64,000 nucleotides of DNA from Arthrobacter sp. APC 3897. GTDB taxonomy: Bacteria > Actinomycetota > Actinomycetes > Actinomycetales > Micrococcaceae. The stretch is from NCBI RefSeq assembly GCF_030407495.1, contig NZ_JASDDG010000007.1:1-64000 (forward strand), in the 5' to 3' direction. This document shows positions 55,571 through 64,000 of the stretch, piece by piece. The position numbers were made by a program, and so were the translations under genes. The notes beneath the pieces were generated by a model. That model did no database searches, was not told the origin of the DNA, and saw only the letters and a program-made list of their open reading frames with translations. Numbering within the stretch: the stretch's first letter is position 1; the number at the start of each line of letters is the position of its first letter.

Positions 55571-56545
55571 CTAGAAGCGCACGTTGCGCAGATACCGGTA
55601 GCCCACCTTTGCTGTCTGCAGGGGCGTGACATCCGGCTGATCATTCTCGACGATGTACTCCTTCGGCTGGTGTGCCTTGAAGATGCGGGAGAAATCGATG
55701 GTTCCGGTGCCCAGGTCAGCGAAATCTCCAGCGCCGTCCCGGTCCTTCACGTGGTACTGCAGGACCTTCTGTGGAGCCTGTTTGATCGTGTCGATGGCGA
55801 ACTGGACCGGGTCGGCGGCACCAACCCCGACGCCGCCTGTAACCACCCAATAAAGGTCAACTTCCAGGTGGACAAGCTTTGGGTCAAGACGGCTGGTGAA
55901 GATGTCCCACGGCGTAAGCCCCCCGCCGAGGTCCGTGGTGAACTCGTGAGCATGGTTGTGGTAGCCGTATTTAATGCCGGCCCTGCGCACGACGGCCGCT
56001 TCTGCATTCATCTGGTCCGCCCACCTGTACCAGTCGTCTGCGTTATCCGAGGCGAGATACGGAACGTTCATGTAGGTCTGGCAGAGCGTCAGTGCGTTGG
56101 AGATCTTAATATCCAGGTCCGCCGGAGTGGCGCTGATCCCCTCATGGCTGGAAGAGGCTCGGATCCCCAAACGGTTCAGTGTCTTCCGGATGTCTTTAGC
56201 AGTGCGTCCGTACAGCCCCGCCAGTTCGACCCGGTCGTATCCGTACCTGGCAAGCTTCGCAAAATTCGCGTCGATGTTTTCGCCGGCCATAATGGACCGC
56301 AGGGTGTACATCTGAATGCTGATCTGTCCGGGAGGAACCGGCCGGTTGCCCTTGTGGCCAGGTTTTCCGTGATGTCCGGGCTTGCCCTTATGATCAGGGT
56401 GGGCCACCGCAGGAGCCGCACCGATGCTGGCGAGGCCGACACCCGCGCCCGCAGCCAATGCCCCGCGGATAAAATTGCGCCGGTCTACCCCCTTCTTTTC
56501 CAGAGATCGATTCAGCGAACCTTTTGCGTCAAATCCGAAGCACAT
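55571..56545 (-). CDS. Tat-exported xylose-isomerase-like TIM barrel protein
   Basis: A 324-residue protein. The N-terminus has DRRNFIRGALAAGAGVGLAS, a twin-arginine signal, followed by a His/Lys/Gly-rich stretch (HPDHKGKPGHHGKPGHKGNR) before the fold. The AP-endonuclease-2/xylose-isomerase-like barrel runs from QISIQMYTLRSIM to the end, with YDRVELAGLYG, ASSSHEGIS, KYGYHNHAHEF, LEVDLYWVVTGG and the final YIVENDQPD, which together give the His, Glu and Asp metal ligands of sugar-phosphate isomerase/epimerase relatives. AGGAAGG precedes ATG 56545. It follows the ROK gene on the same strand. An extracellular sugar isomerase or hydrolase-like role is inferred. Confidence 0.85.
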   Translation of the reverse strand: MCFGFDAKGSLNRSLEKKGVDRRNFIRGALAAGAGVGLASIGAAPAVAHPDHKGKPGHHGKPGHKGNRPVPPGQISIQMYTLRSIMAGENIDANFAKLARYGYDRVELAGLYGRTAKDIRKTLNRLGIRASSSHEGISATPADLDIKISNALTLCQTYMNVPYLASDNADDWYRWADQMNAEAAVVRRAGIKYGYHNHAHEFTTDLGGGLTPWDIFTSRLDPKLVHLEVDLYWVVTGGVGVGAADPVQFAIDTIKQAPQKVLQYHVKDRDGAGDFADLGTGTIDFSRIFKAHQPKEYIVENDQPDVTPLQTAKVGYRYLRNVRF

Positions 56546-56907: not shown

Positions 56908-58167
56908 TCAGTCGGCGTTGCTTAATCCGGAGACCATGGCGTCGATGCGCTGGGGAGACATAGCGTGGTGAATTGCCAGCATGCTGGCACCCAGTACACC
57001 GGCGTCGAGGCCGGAGCCGGAATGGACAATCTGCAGATGCTGGGTTGCAAGCGGGATGGTGCGCGAGTACACCGTCTCCCGAATGCCGGCAATGAAGTGT
57101 TCGCCAGTCAGGGCCATGGATCCCCCAATAACTATTACCGAAGGATTGATGAGACTAATACATGCTGAAAGGATATCCCCAACGTCTCGTCCGGCCTGCC
57201 TGACTGCGTGGATGGCTTCCGTGTTTCCGGCGCCCACCAGTGCCACGATGTCTTCACTACCGCTGGCCTCAATGCCCAGCTGGCGCAGCTTTGAGGCAAT
57301 GGCCGGCCCGGATGCTATGGCTTCCAGACAGTCAGTGTTGCCGCAGTGACAGGGGACTCCGGTCCCGCCGTGCACGCGAATATGCCCGATGTCGCCGGCC
57401 ACTCCGTCCGCCCCCCGCTGAAGCATCCCGCTTGAGACAATGCCTGAACCGATCCCGGTGGCAACTTTAACGAACAATAGATTGTCCACCTGCGGCCAGG
57501 ACATATTGCGTTCGCCCAGGGCCATAATGTTGACGTCATTGTCGACCAGGACAGGAACATGGAATCGTGCCTGAAGGTATCCAGGCACGTCGTAGCCGTT
57601 CCATCCGGGCATGATGGGCGGATTGATGGGCCGTCCGGTGCGGTGCTCCACAGGACCCGGCAGCCCGATCCCAACGGCCAGGAGATCATCTAATGACCGT
57701 CCGGTCCCGCTGAGCAATTCCGTGCCGAGTTCAACAACCGCTTCGAGGACAGCATCTGGACCCCGAGTGATTTCCAGTGCTCGGGCAGATTGGGAAAGCA
57801 GGTGCCCGGTGAGGTCCGTAACCGCCACTTGGAGGTGGGATGCACCGATGTCCACTCCGAGCACAACCCGGCTGCCTGCTTTAAGCGCGATGCGGGAGGA
57901 CGGGCGGCCCCCGGTGGAGACGGCATCCTGAACGAACCCTACGAGGCCCAGATCCATAAGTGCTTCGATCCGGAGGGTGACTGTTGAGCGGGCCAGTCCT
58001 AATTGTGCAGCCAGCTCGGACCGGGTCCGAGGTTTCCCGTCGCGAAGGATTTGGAAGAGCTCGCTCGCTCCGGACGTTGCAAGGCCGCCAACACTACTTA
58101 TGTCACTCACCGACTCATTACAGCATACAGCCGACGGAACTATTGACTTGGTATCTTCGCATGACAT
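56908..58167 (-). CDS. ROK-family transcriptional regulator
   Basis: A 419-residue regulator of the NagC/XylR group. The helix-turn-helix lies near residues 45-85 (TRSELAAQLGLARSTVTLRI). The sugar-kinase fold follows: VVLGVDIGASHLQVAVTDL, GIGLPGPVEHRTG, VLVDNDVNIMALGER, TGIGSGIV and the zinc motif CHCGNTDCLEAIASG. The start is uncertain: ATG 58167 has no ribosome site, TTG 58197 is earlier and GTG 58110 later. It is divergent from the inositol-phosphate-synthase/ebo operon, the likely target, and upstream of the exported TIM-barrel gene. The effector is probably a sugar or cyclitol. Confidence 0.9.
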   Translation of the reverse strand: MSCEDTKSIVPSAVCCNESVSDISSVGGLATSGASELFQILRDGKPRTRSELAAQLGLARSTVTLRIEALMDLGLVGFVQDAVSTGGRPSSRIALKAGSRVVLGVDIGASHLQVAVTDLTGHLLSQSARALEITRGPDAVLEAVVELGTELLSGTGRSLDDLLAVGIGLPGPVEHRTGRPINPPIMPGWNGYDVPGYLQARFHVPVLVDNDVNIMALGERNMSWPQVDNLLFVKVATGIGSGIVSSGMLQRGADGVAGDIGHIRVHGGTGVPCHCGNTDCLEAIASGPAIASKLRQLGIEASGSEDIVALVGAGNTEAIHAVRQAGRDVGDILSACISLINPSVIVIGGSMALTGEHFIAGIRETVYSRTIPLATQHLQIVHSGSGLDAGVLGASMLAIHHAMSPQRIDAMVSGLSNAD

Positions 58168-58306
58168 AGGTCTGCCAGTTTTATTTGAGCCGTCCAAAGC
58201 GGCCGGAGACCAGTTTGCTTATCACGAAACCCGTTACCGCCCGCCGCCATTCGACTTAATAGTGGCAATGCCAAGCGTAGATATATCGGAATAGCTCATA
58301 AGTGCG

Positions 58307-58335
58307 TTGTGGCCTGACATTACCTGTGCTAGGTT
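58307..58335 (+). promoter_or_regulatory. Promoter of the inositol/ebo operon
   Basis: TTGTGG (58307-58312) and TAGGTT (58330-58335) with a 17-base gap, giving a start near 58342 and a leader of about 85 bases that contains the inverted repeats at 58351-58385. Confidence 0.5.
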
Positions 58336-58350
58336 CCCTGTGATCAGCGT

Positions 58351-58385
58351 CTCATTCATGGATTCAGATTCTAATTCTGAATGAG
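58351..58385. promoter_or_regulatory. Nested inverted repeats, candidate ROK operator
   Basis: CTCATTCA (58351-58358) and TGAATGAG (58378-58385) are perfect 8-base arms. Inside them ATTCAGA (58362-58368) and TCTGAAT (58376-58382) are perfect 7-base arms with 7 bases between; the right arms overlap, so the two pairings exclude each other. The element is AT-rich and lies just after the presumed transcription start. It could be a repressor site or alternative RNA hairpins. Confidence 0.55.
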
Positions 58386-58427
58386 GCGCGGGCACGCCGG
58401 TGATACATGAAGCTTCGAGGAGGAAGT

Positions 58428-59693
58428 TTGATCAGGGACACCCACGAGGGGATGCCAGTCAAGGCGGAGCCAGAATCGGCACTCGGTGCCGGGCCGGAGG
58501 ACTGGGACTACGGCCGGACAGGAATCTGGCTCATCGGCGCACGGGGCTCGGTGGCAACAACAGCAGCAATCGGACTGGCGGCCATCGCCGCCAGACTGGT
58601 GAAACCCGTGGGATGCGTGACGGAACAGGACACCTTCCACGGCGTATGCCTCCCGGACTACGCAGACTTTGTGGTGGGTGGTCATGACATCAGCGGCGTT
58701 TCCATGATCAAGCGGGCGGAGAAACTTGTTGATGCAGGCATGCTCCCTGGCCATCTCCTTGAATCAGTCAGAGCCCAACTCCTTGAAGCGGACGGCCGGG
58801 TGCGTTCTGGATATGATCCCGCTGGTTCTGCAGAGTCGCAGGCCGATGCCGCAAGCCGCCTGTCCAGCGACATCGTTGCGTTTAAGGAAGCAAATGGGCT
58901 GCAGCGGGTCATTGTCTTGGACGTAGCCTCCACAGAGGCACCGCTGGACCAGCTCGCCGAGTACCACGACATTGAGCTCCTGAAGTCGGCGCTCGTGGAT
59001 CCGGCACGGCCTGTGTTGCCCGCCAGCTCAGTAGCGGCCTACGCAGCCGTTATGGCGGGCTCTCCATACATATGTTTCACGCCGTCAACTGCCCTGAACG
59101 TTCCTGCTCTGTATGAGCTTGCTGGCGCCTCGCGGGTTCCCACGGCAGGCCAGGACGGCAAAACGGGCCAGACCTGGCTGCGCTCGGTGCTGGCTCCGGC
59201 GCTTTCCGCACGCGGACTGAAGGTCCTGTCCTGGGCCGGGACCAATTTGCTGGGTGGCGGGGACGGAGCCACGCTTGCCGACAGCCGCGCTGTCTCCGCA
59301 AAGCTGCTGTCAAAGAACCGCGGATTGCACGACCTCACAGGAGGTGCCGTTACCCCGCTGCATATTGACAACGTGCCGGACTTGGGCGAGACCAAAGTTG
59401 CGTGGGATCACATCCATGTAGAGGGATTCCTAGGTTCCCGCCTGACAATCCAAACAACGTGGAGCGCCTACGATTCCATGCTGGCAGCTCCGATGATCCT
59501 CGACCTCGCCCGCCTCATGACCCTTGCAGACGCGGCAGGAGAAACTGGGCATCTTGGGGCCCTTGGCTTCTTCTTCAAGGATCCCTGGGGCAGTGTCGAG
59601 CATTCCTTCGCACAGCAGACACACGACCTTGCGGAATGGGCGCTCGCCGCCAGTGGGCGCCTCCTCTCGGACACGGGAGGTGAACAGCTGTGA
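58428..59693 (+). CDS. Inositol-3-phosphate synthase-like enzyme
   Basis: A 421-residue NAD-dependent enzyme of the myo-inositol-1-phosphate synthase family, which cyclises glucose 6-phosphate. The nucleotide loop is GIWLIGARGSVATTAAIG, followed by VTEQDTFHGVCLPDYADFVV, VVGGHDISGVSMIKRAE, YICFTPSTALNVPAL, the SWAGTNLLGGGDGATLAD region and FFFKDPWGSVEHSF. It belongs to the subgroup found with SCO3242-type prenyltransferases. TTG 58428 is chosen because GAGGAGG lies four bases upstream; ATG 58407 and ATG 58452 are alternatives. The stop overlaps the eboC GTG. It probably supplies a cyclitol phosphate to the cluster. Confidence 0.85.
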   Translation: MIRDTHEGMPVKAEPESALGAGPEDWDYGRTGIWLIGARGSVATTAAIGLAAIAARLVKPVGCVTEQDTFHGVCLPDYADFVVGGHDISGVSMIKRAEKLVDAGMLPGHLLESVRAQLLEADGRVRSGYDPAGSAESQADAASRLSSDIVAFKEANGLQRVIVLDVASTEAPLDQLAEYHDIELLKSALVDPARPVLPASSVAAYAAVMAGSPYICFTPSTALNVPALYELAGASRVPTAGQDGKTGQTWLRSVLAPALSARGLKVLSWAGTNLLGGGDGATLADSRAVSAKLLSKNRGLHDLTGGAVTPLHIDNVPDLGETKVAWDHIHVEGFLGSRLTIQTTWSAYDSMLAAPMILDLARLMTLADAAGETGHLGALGFFFKDPWGSVEHSFAQQTHDLAEWALAASGRLLSDTGGEQL

Positions 59694-60571
59694 CCAAGGC
59701 CGGTGATTACCTGGAATTGGTTAGGGCTCCCGCTGTCCTCACCGTCTTGGGGGACTCCGTGGCGGGCGGGGCTGCTGCCGGCCGGCCACTCGCCGGACGT
59801 CGCTTGTGGATGCCGCTGGCGAGCGCGTTCCTCTATGCCGGCGGAATGGCCCTCAACGATTACGCAGACCGGGACATCGATGCGCGCGAACGACCACAGC
59901 GGCCCATTCCTTCCGGAAGGGTGAGCCCCCGGAATGCCCTGGCCGCAGCATCTGCCCTCACAGCCGCCGGACTGGGGCTGTGCGCTGCGGCCGGCGGCCG
60001 GAACTCCTTGGCTGTGGGGATTCCGCTTGCGGTGTCGATTTGGACTTATGACCTGGTGACTAAGGAACATGCCATGGCTGGATCCGTCTCGATGGGCGCA
60101 TGCCGGGCACTTGACGTCCTGATGGGTGCGGGAGCAGGCCATGTCAGGCCGGCACTGGGAGCTGCAGGCATCATGGGTGGCCATACCGTCGCCGTGACTT
60201 TCCTTTCTCGAGGTGAAGTCGATGGAACAGATGCCGCCACAGCCTCCGGCGTTGCAGCAGCGACCGGGCTGCTGGCCGCATCACTCGTGGCAGGATCCGC
60301 TGGACCGCCGACCAGAACGCTCGCCGCTATCGCAGCCGCGGCTGCTTATGCCCTGAGATGCGGACCTGCCCAAATCAGGGCGGCGCGGGACCCTGCGGCC
60401 GTTAACGCCCTGAACGCGACCAAGGCGGGCATCCGGGCGATGGTTCCGCTTCAGGCAGCACTCGCAGTACGGCACGGAGACCCGGTGGGTGCGGGTGCGC
60501 TGCTTGGGGTGGACATCTTAGGCAGGATCATCCGTTCCCGTCCCGGGGGCAGGAAGGTGAGCGAGTCATGA
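59690..60571 (+). CDS. eboC: UbiA-type prenyltransferase EboC (SCO3242 family)
   Basis: A 293-residue integral membrane protein of the UbiA superfamily with about eight helices. The first Asp-rich motif is NDYADRDIDARERPQRPIPSG, with the conserved N-D-x-x-D-x-x-x-D and R-P-I-P-S-G (residues about 62-82). It begins YLELVRAPAVLTVLGDSVAG and ends in a basic tail. Such enzymes attach isoprenoid chains to aromatic or cyclic acceptors in the membrane. GTG 59690 overlaps the stop of the previous gene and uses GGGAGG. The acceptor is unknown; a cyclitol made by the upstream enzyme is a testable idea. Confidence 0.9.
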   Translation: MTKAGDYLELVRAPAVLTVLGDSVAGGAAAGRPLAGRRLWMPLASAFLYAGGMALNDYADRDIDARERPQRPIPSGRVSPRNALAAASALTAAGLGLCAAAGGRNSLAVGIPLAVSIWTYDLVTKEHAMAGSVSMGACRALDVLMGAGAGHVRPALGAAGIMGGHTVAVTFLSRGEVDGTDAATASGVAAATGLLAASLVAGSAGPPTRTLAAIAAAAAYALRCGPAQIRAARDPAAVNALNATKAGIRAMVPLQAALAVRHGDPVGAGALLGVDILGRIIRSRPGGRKVSES

Positions 60572-62073
60572 CCACCACGCCCTCTTTCCCGGCCTTCAGC
60601 ATCGGGTATGGCACCAACGGCTTCACGGATCATCCGCTTCCGGACGTACTGGAGCTGCTGCACGAACTGGGTTACGGAGCTGTCGCTCTGACTCTCGGCC
60701 ACCCTCATCTGGACCCTTTCGACCCAGACTTGGAAGCCCGGCTTAAGTGTCTGCGCAGCCGCCTCCAGGACCTGGACCTTCGGATTGTCATAGAGACCGG
60801 TACCCGTTTCCTGCTCAACCGGCGGGAGAAACATCGGCCGACCCTTGTGGACGAAGACGCCGCAACCCGGGTCGATTTTCTTCGCCGGGCAATAGACATC
60901 GCCGCGGTACTGAACGCCGAATGCGTTTCTTTCTTCTCAGGGATCCTGCCTCCCGAAGCCAGCCCCGAGTCCGGTTGGAAGCGGCTGGAAACCCGGGTTG
61001 CTGACGTACTTGGGCATGCTGCCGGGAAAGGGGTACTGCTCGCGGTTGAACCGGAGCCCGGAATGCTGGTGGAGACCGTTGCTGATGCCCTTGAGCTTCG
61101 GAACCGCCTTGGCAATCCGGAAGGACTCGGGGTGACGGTGGACATCGGACACTGCGTGGTGGTTGAGCCCGGCGGGGTGCGCGGTGCGCTGATGGAAGCC
61201 GGAGCACTTTTGGCGAACGTCCAGCTCGACGACATGCGGTCCGTTGCCCATGAGCACCTTCCCTTCGGTGAAGGGGAGGTCGATGTTGCGCTTGCCCTGA
61301 AAACGCTCGCAGAACTGGATTACCGTGGGGTGGCCGCCGTCGAGCTCCCTCGGCACTCCTATGATGCACCAGGCTTAGCCACCCGAAGCATGGCCGCCCT
61401 GCAGGCTGCCTGGCGGGAAGCCCAGGCAGGCAAAGCGGCGGAAGAATGGCTACAGGAAAGCGTGGCACGGATCGCGGCAGATCCCGGTGCGTTGCCAGCA
61501 GTTTTCGCCACAGCCAGCCGTACTGTTGGCCGCGGTCCTCTCCAGCCGGCCACGGATCCCACCGCGGTCCTCCATGGCAGCAACAGCGACTACGCCCGCG
61601 GCGAGCTCATTCGGCGACTGCGGGAGTTCCGCCCTCCCGAAGACCTGGCTGAATCTCTCCTTTCGCTGTACAGCAGGGGAGACTCCTCGGAACGGCGGGG
61701 GGTGTTGAGGGGCCTGGGCTCGATGGCCGTTGATGAGCCGGATCTCCCGGTTCCGGTCATCACAGCGGGCCTGCGGCTGACCGCCGAGGCACTTCGGACG
61801 AATGAGACCGGACTGGTCGCGGCCGCCGTCGGCCCCTTCGCTGCCGCCTTCCTCGATCAGCACAACTGGCGCCACGCAGTCCTGAAGCTTATCTTCATGG
61901 GCGTCAGCATTGCCGCCGTCACCGACCTCGACGAGCGGGCGGATGACGAACTGGCGCGCATGGCCGCCGATTTCGCAGCTGAACGGCAAGCAGCGGGACG
62001 CCCGGTACCGGACGACGTCGGTCTCCTGCTGGGCCGTGCCGCCAGCCCCTCCATCTCTCGTAAGGAGTCCTAA
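60568..62073 (+). CDS. eboA: Fusion of xylose-isomerase-like TIM barrel and EboA domain
   Basis: A 501-residue two-domain protein. Residues about 10-275 are a TIM barrel of the AP-endonuclease-2 type: IGYGTNGFTDHPLPDVLELL, LRIVIETG, LAVEPEPGMLVET, VTVDIGHCVVVEPGG, NVQLDDMRSVAHEHLPFGEG and VAAVELPRHSY, retaining the Glu, Asp and His metal ligands. After a linker, residues about 290-495 match the helical EboA domain: SNSDYARGELIRRLREFRPP, AESLLSLYSRGDSSERRGVL, FAAAFLDQHNWRHAVLKLIFMG and the LARMAADFAAERQAAGRPVP end. In cyanobacteria EboA is a stand-alone protein of unknown function. ATG overlaps the eboC stop. Confidence 0.85.
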   Translation: MTTTPSFPAFSIGYGTNGFTDHPLPDVLELLHELGYGAVALTLGHPHLDPFDPDLEARLKCLRSRLQDLDLRIVIETGTRFLLNRREKHRPTLVDEDAATRVDFLRRAIDIAAVLNAECVSFFSGILPPEASPESGWKRLETRVADVLGHAAGKGVLLAVEPEPGMLVETVADALELRNRLGNPEGLGVTVDIGHCVVVEPGGVRGALMEAGALLANVQLDDMRSVAHEHLPFGEGEVDVALALKTLAELDYRGVAAVELPRHSYDAPGLATRSMAALQAAWREAQAGKAAEEWLQESVARIAADPGALPAVFATASRTVGRGPLQPATDPTAVLHGSNSDYARGELIRRLREFRPPEDLAESLLSLYSRGDSSERRGVLRGLGSMAVDEPDLPVPVITAGLRLTAEALRTNETGLVAAAVGPFAAAFLDQHNWRHAVLKLIFMGVSIAAVTDLDERADDELARMAADFAAERQAAGRPVPDDVGLLLGRAASPSISRKES

Positions 62074-62075
62074 CC

Positions 62076-62954
62076 ATGCGCATCTTTGACCCGCATATTC
62101 ACATGACAAGCCGTACGACCGACGATTACGCCGCTATGTATGACAGCGGGGTGCGGGCACTGGTTGAGCCCGCCTTCTGGTTGGGACAGCCAAGAACCAG
62201 CATTGGATCCTTCATTGACTACTTTGATTCCCTGCTGGGCTGGGAACGGTTCCGGGCCGCCCAGTACGGCATCCGGCACCACGCCACGATCGCCCTGAAT
62301 CCCAAGGAGGCCAACGATCCCAGATGCGTGCCGGTCTTGGATGAGATTCCCCGATACCTGACCAAAGAGGGGGTCGTTGCAGTCGGAGAGATCGGTTTTG
62401 ATTCCATGACTCCAGCCGAAGACGAGGCTTTCAGCCGCCAGCTGGAGCTGGCCGGCGAATTCTCCCTGCCCGCACTGGTGCACACCCCGCATCGGGAGAA
62501 GCTCCGGGGCACCCAGCGGACACTCGACCTTGTCCGCGAGTCGAAGGTTGATCCCTCGATGGTTGTTGTTGACCACCTTAATGAAACCAACGTGCACATG
62601 GTGAAGGACTTCGGAGCTTGGATGGGTTTCTCCATCTATCCGGACACCAAGATGGATGAGGAACGCCTGGTCGCAATCCTCCATGAGTACGGAACCGAGA
62701 AGGTGCTGGTTAACTCTGCCGCGGATTGGGGGAAATCCGATCCGCTCAAGACAGCGAGCACAGCGAAAGCTATGCTCGCCGGCGGGTTCTCGGAAGACGA
62801 CGTCGACCGCGTCCTTTGGCAGAACCCGATCGCATTCTATGGCCAGAGCGGTGCGCTGATCCTCGATCCGATCCCCGGTTTTGACGGAGCGGAACTCGGC
62901 GGAGCCGGGGAGACGTTCGAGGGCAACTCACTTCTGCGGGGAGTCCGCGCCTGA
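62076..62954 (+). CDS. eboB: TatD-type metal-dependent hydrolase EboB
   Basis: A 292-residue amidohydrolase-fold protein. The metal ligands follow the TatD order: HxH in FDPHIHMTSR, Glu in VAVGEIGFDS, His in ALVHTPHREKL, His in VVVDHLNETNV and the final Asp in NSAADWGKSDPLK. It differs from housekeeping TatD nucleases in its VEPAFWLGQPRTSIGSFIDY insertion, which identifies the Ebo-associated branch. Start ATG 62076 follows AAGGAG, two bases after the previous stop. The substrate is unknown. Confidence 0.88.
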   Translation: MRIFDPHIHMTSRTTDDYAAMYDSGVRALVEPAFWLGQPRTSIGSFIDYFDSLLGWERFRAAQYGIRHHATIALNPKEANDPRCVPVLDEIPRYLTKEGVVAVGEIGFDSMTPAEDEAFSRQLELAGEFSLPALVHTPHREKLRGTQRTLDLVRESKVDPSMVVVDHLNETNVHMVKDFGAWMGFSIYPDTKMDEERLVAILHEYGTEKVLVNSAADWGKSDPLKTASTAKAMLAGGFSEDDVDRVLWQNPIAFYGQSGALILDPIPGFDGAELGGAGETFEGNSLLRGVRA

Positions 62955-64000
62955 TGCAGCTTTCCTACTGCACCAACGTGCATCCGGCCGAGGACCTTGA
63001 CGGGGTAATCCGTCAGCTCCGCGAATACGCCGGTCCCATCCGCCGCAGGGCGGGACTGGACGTTCTCGGCGTCGGGCTCTGGCTGCCGGCAGGGCTGGCC
63101 AGCCGTCTGTCGGGAAGCGCCGCGGACGTGGCTTTGCTTGGTGAGGTACTCTCCGAGCTGGGACTACAAATCCATACCCTGAATGCTTTTCCCTACGGCG
63201 GCTTCCACAACGAGGTAGTCAAGAAAGACGTCTATCAGCCTACCTGGGCACAGCGGGAGCGCCTGCAGTACACCCTGGAATGTGCAAACGTCCTAGCGGC
63301 CCTGCTTCCCGAAGGGATGCCGGGATCCATCTCCACGCTGCCCCTGGCCTGGCGTGATCCCTGGACCGGAGACGACGACGAGTCCGCCATCACCGCGTTC
63401 GTGGAATTGTCTGAAGGCCTGAGAGCACTGAAGGAGCGCACCGGAAAGACAGTTCGGATAGCGGTGGAACCGGAACCGGGATGCGTACTCGACACCGTCT
63501 CGGATGTGACAGCATGGCTGGCAGCGGGGCTCCCCAGAGGCATCGACTCCGATTACATCGGCCTGTGCATAGACACCTGCCATCTGGCGGTGTCTTTTGC
63601 CGACCCGGCAGCTGCAGTTCGCAGCGTCGCTGCAGCCGGCCTGCGCATCGTAAAAGTTCAGGCTTCCACCGCGCTGCATGTGGCTGCACCCTCAGAAGCA
63701 GCGGCCCGCAGCGCGCTTGAAGCGTTCGCGGAACCGCGGTACCTACACCAGGTCCGGGAGCTGGGACGTGATGGAAATGTCCTGATGGCTGATGACCTGC
63801 CGCAGGCACTGGCTGAACTTCCCGGGCGGGGCCCTTGGAGGGTCCATTTCCACATGCCCCTCCACGTGGTGCCGGTGCTTCCGCTGGAGACCACCGCCAA
63901 GGTGCTGGAAACGACTGTGGATGAAGTGAACAGCCTGCCGTACAGGCAGGAAGTGCATCTGGATATAGAAACCTACACGTGGAGTGTTCTGCCCGGGAAA
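62954..64000 (+). CDS. eboE: EboE, metabolite traffic protein (partial, cut by window end)
   Basis: At least 349 residues of a protein that is still open at the right edge. It is a xylose-isomerase-like TIM barrel: MQLSYCTNVHPAEDLDGVIR, IHTLNAFPYGGFHNEVVKKD, PTWAQRERLQYTLECANVLA, VRIAVEPEPGCVLDTVSDV, IGLCIDTCHLAVSF, IVKVQASTALH and RVHFHMPLHV, ending VHLDIETYTWSVLPG. NVHPAEDL and NAFPYGGFH are hallmarks of EboE. ATG 62954 overlaps the eboB stop (TGATG). In Nostoc the ebo genes are needed to move scytonemin precursors to the periplasm. The next gene expected beyond the edge is eboF, a nucleotide-pyrophosphatase/phosphodiesterase. Confidence 0.9.
   Translation, partial: MQLSYCTNVHPAEDLDGVIRQLREYAGPIRRRAGLDVLGVGLWLPAGLASRLSGSAADVALLGEVLSELGLQIHTLNAFPYGGFHNEVVKKDVYQPTWAQRERLQYTLECANVLAALLPEGMPGSISTLPLAWRDPWTGDDDESAITAFVELSEGLRALKERTGKTVRIAVEPEPGCVLDTVSDVTAWLAAGLPRGIDSDYIGLCIDTCHLAVSFADPAAAVRSVAAAGLRIVKVQASTALHVAAPSEAAARSALEAFAEPRYLHQVRELGRDGNVLMADDLPQALAELPGRGPWRVHFHMPLHVVPVLPLETTAKVLETTVDEVNSLPYRQEVHLDIETYTWSVLPGK

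Follow-up and report, generated by a model that had tools for sequence, protein, structure and literature searches.

A myo-inositol-phosphate-synthase-like enzyme and a TIM-barrel partner most likely replace EboD in actinobacterial ebo clusters

Introduction

The ebo operon, eboABCDEF, has been described from Bacteroidetes, Cyanobacteria and the plastids of eustigmatophytes (PMC5133447), and in Nostoc punctiforme the ebo cluster is needed for the periplasmic scytonemin monomer, in a study whose analysis did not extend to eboD (PMC6282210). The sections of these two papers that deal with its function propose an isoprenoid-cyclitol product (PMC5133447) and a lipid-carrier role (PMC6282210), and the ebo product itself is left open in those sections in 2016 as in 2018. 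Here we describe an actinobacterial form of this widespread, little-understood cluster, found at the right-hand end of a 64,000-nucleotide stretch of Arthrobacter sp. APC 3897 DNA (contig NZ_JASDDG010000007.1, positions 1 to 64,000; hereafter the window). The window cluster begins with a homologue of myo-inositol-phosphate synthase (MIPS) and contains an additional TIM-barrel protein (hereafter TIM). We believe, with moderate confidence, that in this form of ebo a MIPS-type enzyme, with TIM as its partner, has taken the place of the sugar-phosphate cyclase EboD, and that the exchange offers a concrete handle on the ebo product.

A literature search in which full texts were covered in part returned nothing recognisable as a MIPS in an ebo cluster or as an exchange of EboD for MIPS and TIM, and the term 'myo-inositol' is absent from the main text of PMC5133447. 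The ideas of an isoprenoid cyclitol, of a lipid carrier and of a TIM-EboA fusion, by contrast, have all been published; actinobacterial TIM-EboA hybrids are mentioned, as data not shown, in a passage of PMC5133447.

Results

At the end of the window, six plus-strand genes run in the order MIPS, UbiA, TIM::EboA, EboB, EboE and EboF. The first (58407..59693, 428 aa) encodes the MIPS/Ino1-like cyclitol-phosphate synthase and contains both MIPS Pfam domains (PF07994, 1.3e-48; PF01658, 1.5e-27). It overlaps by 4 bp the gene for a UbiA-family prenyltransferase of the SCO3242 family, the counterpart of EboC (59690..60571, 293 aa), which in turn overlaps by 4 bp the gene for the TIM::EboA fusion (60568..62073, 501 aa; PF01261, NF035938). 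EboB, a TatD-like metallo-hydrolase (62076..62954, 292 aa; PF01026, 5e-14), begins after a gap of 2 bp and overlaps by 1 bp the gene for EboE, a TIM-barrel protein (NF035939) whose reading frame is still open at the window end (62954..64000) and reaches its stop at 64078 in L003, the continuation of the same contig past 64,000 (L003:55-1179). L003 also supplies EboF, recognised by the EboF alignment, 40 bp after EboE and wholly beyond the window (64119-65519; L003:1220-2620). A preliminary description of the window, made from its sequence, had reported the first five genes as overlapping or abutting, which the reading-frame coordinates and the Pfam and NCBIfam profiles bear out, and had proposed a search for eboF to the right, where it is indeed present. 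The gene run that it placed at 58307..64000 is likewise real, with the correction that the first start codon comes about 100 bp further on than 58307.

The preliminary description had seen no EboD here, and none passes the EboD-family cut-off anywhere in the window genome: the search returned a single PF01761 gene, on another contig, which scores 169 bits against the EboD model NF004852 (cut-off 333). A survey for EboE found it in 19 of 396 Actinobacteriota genomes (18 over the cut-off) and in 7 of 197 genomes of the window's own family, the window's genome included in both counts; the distribution of ebo among Actinobacteriota is patchy. Of 19 neighbourhoods taken from the 18 other EboE-positive Actinobacteriota genomes, 18 have all of EboB, EboC, EboE and EboF, and the order MIPS-UbiA-TIM-EboA-EboB-EboE-EboF is found in 16 of the 19 and in all six further loci of the window's own family. 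Since the same order recurs across loci, the arrangement is not a matter of chance. One actinobacterial locus, L031, carries EboD and a short EboG-like protein, without MIPS and without TIM; its EboF is 49% identical to that of the window contig. Another, L028, is a second cluster, with TIM, UbiA, EboA, EboB, EboE and EboF present and MIPS absent. In L028 (L028:11080-15333, genome G128) an FAD-dependent amine-oxidase-like gene lies upstream of UbiA.

A scan with the EboF alignment, using one genome per species, yielded at least 583 confirmed loci, of which we kept the best 80. The ranking was by similarity to a query of the EboD type, so the scan under-samples MIPS-type clusters outside Actinobacteria. 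By their titles, these 80 come from cyanobacteria, Bacteroidota, Pseudomonadota, Chloroflexota, Acidobacteriota and others. Seventy of them have EboB, EboC, EboE and EboF; EboD is present in 69 of the 70, and MIPS or TIM in none. Across 119 loci in total, MIPS occurs in 35, TIM in 37 and EboD in 74, and EboD occurs with MIPS or TIM in none (this set includes L045 and ten incomplete EboF-scan loci, which the full-cluster counts exclude; the window is in neither). The highest TIM score in any EboD locus is 51 bits, whereas every other ebo locus that has TIM reaches at least 256 bits. At the level of whole genomes, NF004852 exceeds its cut-off in none of 23 MIPS-type genomes, not in the one incomplete-cluster genome (G279), and in all four EboD-type genomes, and any MIPS is found in 4 of 20 EboF-scan genomes examined. 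The proposal in the preliminary description that the first gene stands in for EboD is thus well supported by the absence of co-occurrence in the 119 loci and of NF004852 matches over the cut-off in the 23 MIPS-type genomes.

The role of TIM is clarified by its company. The N-terminal part of the fusion (residues about 1-285, PF01261 spanning 29-279) is a xylose-isomerase-like TIM barrel, and the C-terminal part (residues 341-486) scores 139.5 bits against EboA_domain NF035938 (cut-off 50), which settles the profile check that had been proposed for this half; the whole-family EboA model NF035937 is not reached (58.5 bits, cut-off 320). The best named profiles for TIM and its relatives are hydroxypyruvate isomerase, fructoselysine epimerase, IolO and IolE, all far under their cut-offs. 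Residues E161, D192, H195 and E259 are invariant in the TIM alignment, and we take them to resemble the residues that bind metal in xylose-isomerase-type barrels. TIM and EboA are fused in 8 of 24 clusters (the window, L043 and L166-L171) and encoded by separate genes in the other 16. The fusion had earlier been read as tying EboA to the product of the second barrel, a view that three observations do not support: the separate genes; the 62 of 70 full EboF-scan clusters that have EboD and EboA without TIM; and 13 genomes in which TIM accompanies MIPS without EboA. We therefore discarded the idea that TIM is a partner dedicated to EboA; the TIM gene tracks MIPS, not EboA.

Scans for TIM alone (E up to 1e-45 in Actinobacteriota and up to 1e-40 in other phyla) gave hits in 24 of the 396 Actinobacteriota genomes and found relatives in 4 of 249 genomes of the phylum of Hyphomicrobium and 2 of 247 of the phylum of Algoriphagus; no relative was found in 201 genomes of the phylum of Herpetosiphon (Chloroflexota), a null that weighs little since that phylum has no known positive. 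In the 13 genomes TIM lies outside ebo clusters, no ebo genes were found in the TIM locus stretches, and MIPS is at the locus in every one. Across the 119-locus set MIPS is present at 35 of 37 TIM loci. The two exceptions are L028, the second cluster described above, and L204, a contig fragment of genome G173; MIPS lies on L205, the other fragment of that locus. Most of the ebo-free loci belong to a conserved cluster that spans three phyla (L203:7777-17581; also L199-L202, L204/L205 and L212-L216). It is present in six genomes from a single actinobacterial family, in one of which it is divided between two contigs, and also in four genomes from the phylum of Hyphomicrobium and one from that of Algoriphagus. 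It comprises MIPS, a gene of unknown function, in most cases also a methyltransferase gene (undetected in L205 and L216), an IolG-like Gfo/Idh dehydrogenase (110 bits to the inositol dehydrogenase IolG model, cut-off 355), with which MIPS mostly shares an operon, and further YcaO, TIM, a glycosyltransferase of family GT4 and a deacetylase of the PIG-L type. This gene content is like that of a pathway to a thiol or a glycosyl-inositol in which YcaO chemistry takes part; a literature search judged by title found none on such a MIPS/YcaO cluster. Two further genomes have an adjacent MIPS-TIM pair (L155 and L217). In a quick tree the ebo-free MIPS form a clade beside Bacteroides-type MIPS (Shimodaira-Hasegawa-like approximate likelihood ratio test, SH-aLRT, 99), not beside the ebo MIPS, and TIM has therefore worked with two MIPS lineages. 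Because TIM goes with MIPS at ebo-free loci as well, it is the two together that most likely replace EboD in actinobacterial ebo clusters.

One locus remains to be mentioned here. L045:7061-11646, in G279, is an incomplete ebo cluster with a UbiA fragment, EboA, EboB, an EboE matched at its two ends only, and EboF; the adjacent MIPS-TIM pair L155 lies elsewhere in the same genome.

The enzymes common to both cluster types were compared position by position. For this comparison and for the accompanying trees, made by a quick method, the MIPS-type group included L028, and the EboD-type group consisted of L031 and all EboF-scan loci with the protein in question, including a few in which no EboD was found; rows spanning less than 75% of the window protein were dropped from the comparison, and a position was called fixed at 95% or more of rows in both groups. 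The two types agree on the residue at all 57 fixed positions of EboB, and at 46 of the 48 of EboE, 102 of the 105 of EboF and 20 of the 21 of EboC. The two types split at one branch in every tree (SH-aLRT 100 for EboE, 99 for EboB, 100 for EboF and 99 for EboC), which is consistent with a single switch between types. With such residues in common, the shared Ebo enzymes probably handle very similar intermediates in both types, and if they bind very similar molecules, MIPS (with TIM) and EboD would supply one and the same intermediate or two that are closely related. The window EboE passes TIM_EboE NF035939 (412 bits, cut-off 250). EboB passes Pfam PF01026 (52.7 bits, cut-off 27), does not reach the NCBIfam TatD/YchF model TIGR00010 (36.7 bits, cut-off 206) and is matched by no NCBIfam EboB model; a model of actinobacterial EboB matches the EboB of L031 and those of cyanobacterial and Bacteroidota clusters. 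EboB is set outside TatD proper in the relevant part of PMC5133447.

The MIPS-like enzyme of the window has the catalytic N/K/K/K/D/K residues. Its closest solved structure is Archaeoglobus fulgidus MIPS (1u1i, 3.6e-54), with Mycobacterium tuberculosis Ino1 at just 2.4e-4, and it is closer to the MIPS of archaea and Bacteroides than to the Ino1 of mycobacteria. The window genome has another MIPS besides, one of the type common in actinobacteria; we rejected the idea that the ebo copy is a plain paralogue of this mycothiol-type Ino1, in view of a tree split of 100/100 and of the A. fulgidus match. In A. fulgidus numbering, D225, N255, D261, K274, K278, K306, D332 and K367 are conserved in 23 of 23 ebo copies, which is eight of the ten positions compared, and N255, K274, K306, D332 and K367 are among residues named important from earlier mutagenesis in the portion of PMC5614600 that concerns them. 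The glycine-rich active-site loop is another matter. Positions 259-260 are Gly-Gly in 23 of 23 ebo MIPS and Asp-Tyr in A. fulgidus. In 34 other bacterial locus rows and in the Bacteroides enzyme, position 259 is Asn and position 260 is Arg, Met, Thr or, in 2 rows, Gly; in comparison with 20 non-ebo rows, Gly also replaces Ser253. Each of the three glycines (253, 259 and 260) is found in at least 95% of the 23 ebo rows, and the loop reads GGGDG in ebo MIPS against GDYDG in the A. fulgidus enzyme, with which the catalytic residues are held in common. Because the catalytic residues are kept and the glycine loop is specific to the clade, the ebo MIPS probably retains the ring-closing chemistry and may differ in substrate or stereochemistry. 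In two genomes, G268 (L143) and G318 (L142; 82% complete), the ebo copy is the sole MIPS found, and there it could double as an inositol source.

A less elaborate explanation would be that the MIPS-like enzyme makes ordinary myo-inositol phosphate, and that the cluster prenylates or otherwise modifies inositol to a C6 product unlike that of the EboD type, the Ebo proteins tolerating either headgroup. The eight canonical positions speak for this explanation, as do G268 and G318 with no other MIPS gene. Against it stand another MIPS already present in 15 of 17 MIPS-type genomes checked, the altered glycine loop fixed throughout the clade, and the near absence of type-specific fixed residues in EboB, EboE and EboF, which would be unexpected if these enzymes met a different ring. 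On balance we find it unlikely, and continue to favour a MIPS-TIM route to an intermediate the same as, or close to, that of EboD.

The prenyltransferase bears on what happens to that intermediate. The window UbiA passes the NCBIfam model NF045897 SCO3242_trans (314 bits, cut-off 260) and falls short of the NCBI EboC equivalog model (158 bits, cut-off 250); of the Ebo membership that the preliminary description had assumed for both UbiA and EboE, that of EboE stands by profile, and UbiA is placed in the SCO3242 family, outside the NCBI EboC family. The acidic motif N56 D57 xx D60 xxx D64 is common to both cluster types. All 7 own-family clusters and 3 of the 19 other loci have a polyprenyl synthase gene nearby (L003:6466-7545; homologues in L027, L039, L044 and L166-L171), which is confirmed by Pfam in L003, L027, L039 and L044; in L039 the listed synthase reading frame overlaps that of eboF by 4 bp. 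The neighbouring synthase is likely to supply the prenyl donor, and since it adjoins some clusters, the prenylation step suggested earlier gains support.

The acceptor might also be aromatic, in which case UbiA would belong to a pathway that does not prenylate cyclitols, and MIPS or EboD would feed a separate branch. In favour of this, homologous Ubi-297 enzymes from Maribacter, Zobellia and Algoriphagus farnesylate 8-hydroxyquinoline-2-carboxylate in vitro (PMC9235831). The acceptors tested there were 14 aromatic compounds, no cyclitol acceptor being mentioned in the portion of the paper that concerns them. The two ebo models aside, the window UbiA scores best, among profiles with a named function, against geranylgeranylglycerol-phosphate geranylgeranyltransferase (64 bits, below cut-off), an enzyme whose acceptor is an alcohol; chlorophyll synthase (47 bits) and proteobacterial UbiA (34 bits) are also below their cut-offs. 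Moreover, both of the exchangeable genes come from families that cyclise sugar phosphates. We regard an aromatic acceptor as improbable, and retain a cyclitol as the preferred one.

Sugar-related genes flank the cluster. A divergent ROK-family regulator (56908..58197, minus strand, PF00480) is kept in 6 of 6 own-family loci (L166-L171), as is, near the cluster, a strong homologue of a Tat-signal TIM-barrel protein with a distant IolE likeness (55571..56545, minus strand, PF01261; TIGR04379 32 bits, below cut-off). Glucose/sorbosone dehydrogenase-like proteins are encoded beside MIPS-type clusters at L003:2823-5048 and in L030, L033-L037, L039, L042, L044 and L166-L171, and ThuA-like genes are found in L030, L033-L037 and L039, Pfam confirming ThuA and 3-keto-disaccharide hydrolase domains in L034 and L035. 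A sugar-type ATP-binding cassette (ABC) transporter at L003:7605-10168 was recognised by eye only. A match of the neighbouring dehydrogenase to the ScyE family was discarded as evidence (19.7 bits, cut-off 80). That the locus is catabolic, for an inositol-like sugar, rather than biosynthetic would agree with the ROK regulators, the dehydrogenase-like and ThuA/3-keto-disaccharide hydrolase-like proteins and the transporter, and is very improbable in view of the synthase and prenyltransferase in the core, the polyprenyl synthase in the own-family cluster and the variability of the sugar genes, with no ThuA, glucose/sorbosone dehydrogenase or ROK detected in L027, L028, L029, L032, L038, L041 and L043 (some of them cut by contig ends).

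Discussion

Overall, we believe that the replacement of EboD by MIPS and TIM can be placed in a pathway. The MIPS-like enzyme, with bound NAD, would oxidise a sugar phosphate and close the ring by an internal aldol reaction. TIM, a distant relative of isomerases, epimerases and dehydratases, inosose-acting ones among them, would then isomerise, epimerise or eliminate on the ring, giving a compound equal or close to the product of EboD. EboB, EboE, EboF and EboA, found in both types, would process the ring compound, and the membrane-bound UbiA would add a prenyl chain, the donor coming in some genomes from the cluster-adjacent polyprenyl diphosphate synthase. We infer each of these reactions, the substrates and the prenylated-cyclitol product from the gene content, the mutual exclusion, the linkage of TIM to MIPS and the conserved catalytic and shared-enzyme residues observed here; an export or carrier role would be carried over solely from the published work on Nostoc.

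Several points weigh against this pathway. MIPS keeps the phosphate on the ring and EboD-type enzymes release it, so the two products would match only after a further step. The canonical substrate of MIPS is glucose 6-phosphate, unlike that of the relatives of EboD. In its treatment of the cyclase, PMC5133447 places EboD among the sedoheptulose 7-phosphate cyclases, and its nearest characterised relatives use sedoheptulose 7-phosphate. Given these substrates, either EboD acts on a C6 sugar or the ebo MIPS acts on a C7 sugar. The second cluster L028 has neither MIPS nor EboD nearby, a MIPS-type cluster (L030) lying elsewhere in its genome, and L109 is the one full EboF-scan locus of the 70 that shows no EboD. 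Fourteen of the 119 loci were fetched for TIM or MIPS, lack ebo genes and are uninformative on the exclusion of EboD within ebo clusters. A single origin of the ebo MIPS clade is poorly supported, at 74/78 in one tree and 17 in a quick tree. Finally, the experiments described in PMC9235831 show Ubi-297, which is homologous to EboC, transferring prenyl groups to quinolines in vitro, which suggests an aromatic acceptor.

One tentative extension of the MIPS-TIM pathway would reconcile the substrates. The ebo MIPS, with its altered glycine loop, might close sedoheptulose 7-phosphate to a phosphorylated C7 cyclitol, and TIM might then shift the ketone and eliminate or reposition groups to reach the valiolone-type ring of EboD, which the ebo machinery would prenylate into a new class of membrane lipid or carrier present in many phyla and in algal plastids. 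We consider this doubtful in its full form; if it were true, two unrelated folds would have converged on one molecule.

Regardless of the specific ring, the exchange constrains the ebo product. If EboD is exchangeable with MIPS and TIM while the fixed residues of the other enzymes stay the same, the headgroup should be reachable by both chemistries. MIPS and TIM are probably soluble enzymes that can be assayed, which makes the question of the ebo product more testable.

A precedent for a MIPS-family enzyme acting on another sugar phosphate is Ari2, a MIPS homologue (6k96) that makes a five-membered cyclitol phosphate from fructose 6-phosphate, as reported in part of PMC11188666. Ari2 is far nearer to the M. 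tuberculosis type of Ino1 (210 bits to L126, against 32 bits to the window protein) and, unlike the ebo MIPS, retains the GN-x-D motif.

Closer to the window cluster is Streptomyces coelicolor SCO3242, which gives its name to the NCBI family holding the window UbiA. Because of this family tie, SCO3242 and SCO3243 probably belong to the same pathway as the window cluster. The rest of the ebo genes presumably follow them in S. coelicolor. SCO3243, which adjoins SCO3242 by number, is annotated as a myo-inositol phosphate synthase, and the relevant section of PMC3610822 counts both genes in the calcium-dependent antibiotic (CDA) cluster, a setting unlike the ebo setting of the window. Our comparison suggests that these two genes, counted with that cluster, would belong to another pathway.

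The Nostoc punctiforme ebo cluster has EboA, EboB, EboC, EboE and EboF homologous to those of the window cluster (PMC6282210). With the ebo operon of Bacteroidetes, Cyanobacteria and eustigmatophyte plastids, as set out in the parts of PMC5133447 that describe it, the window cluster has in common the EboA domain, EboB, UbiA, EboE and EboF, together with their shared fixed residues; it differs in gene order and in lacking EboD, in place of which it has the MIPS-like enzyme and the extra TIM barrel.

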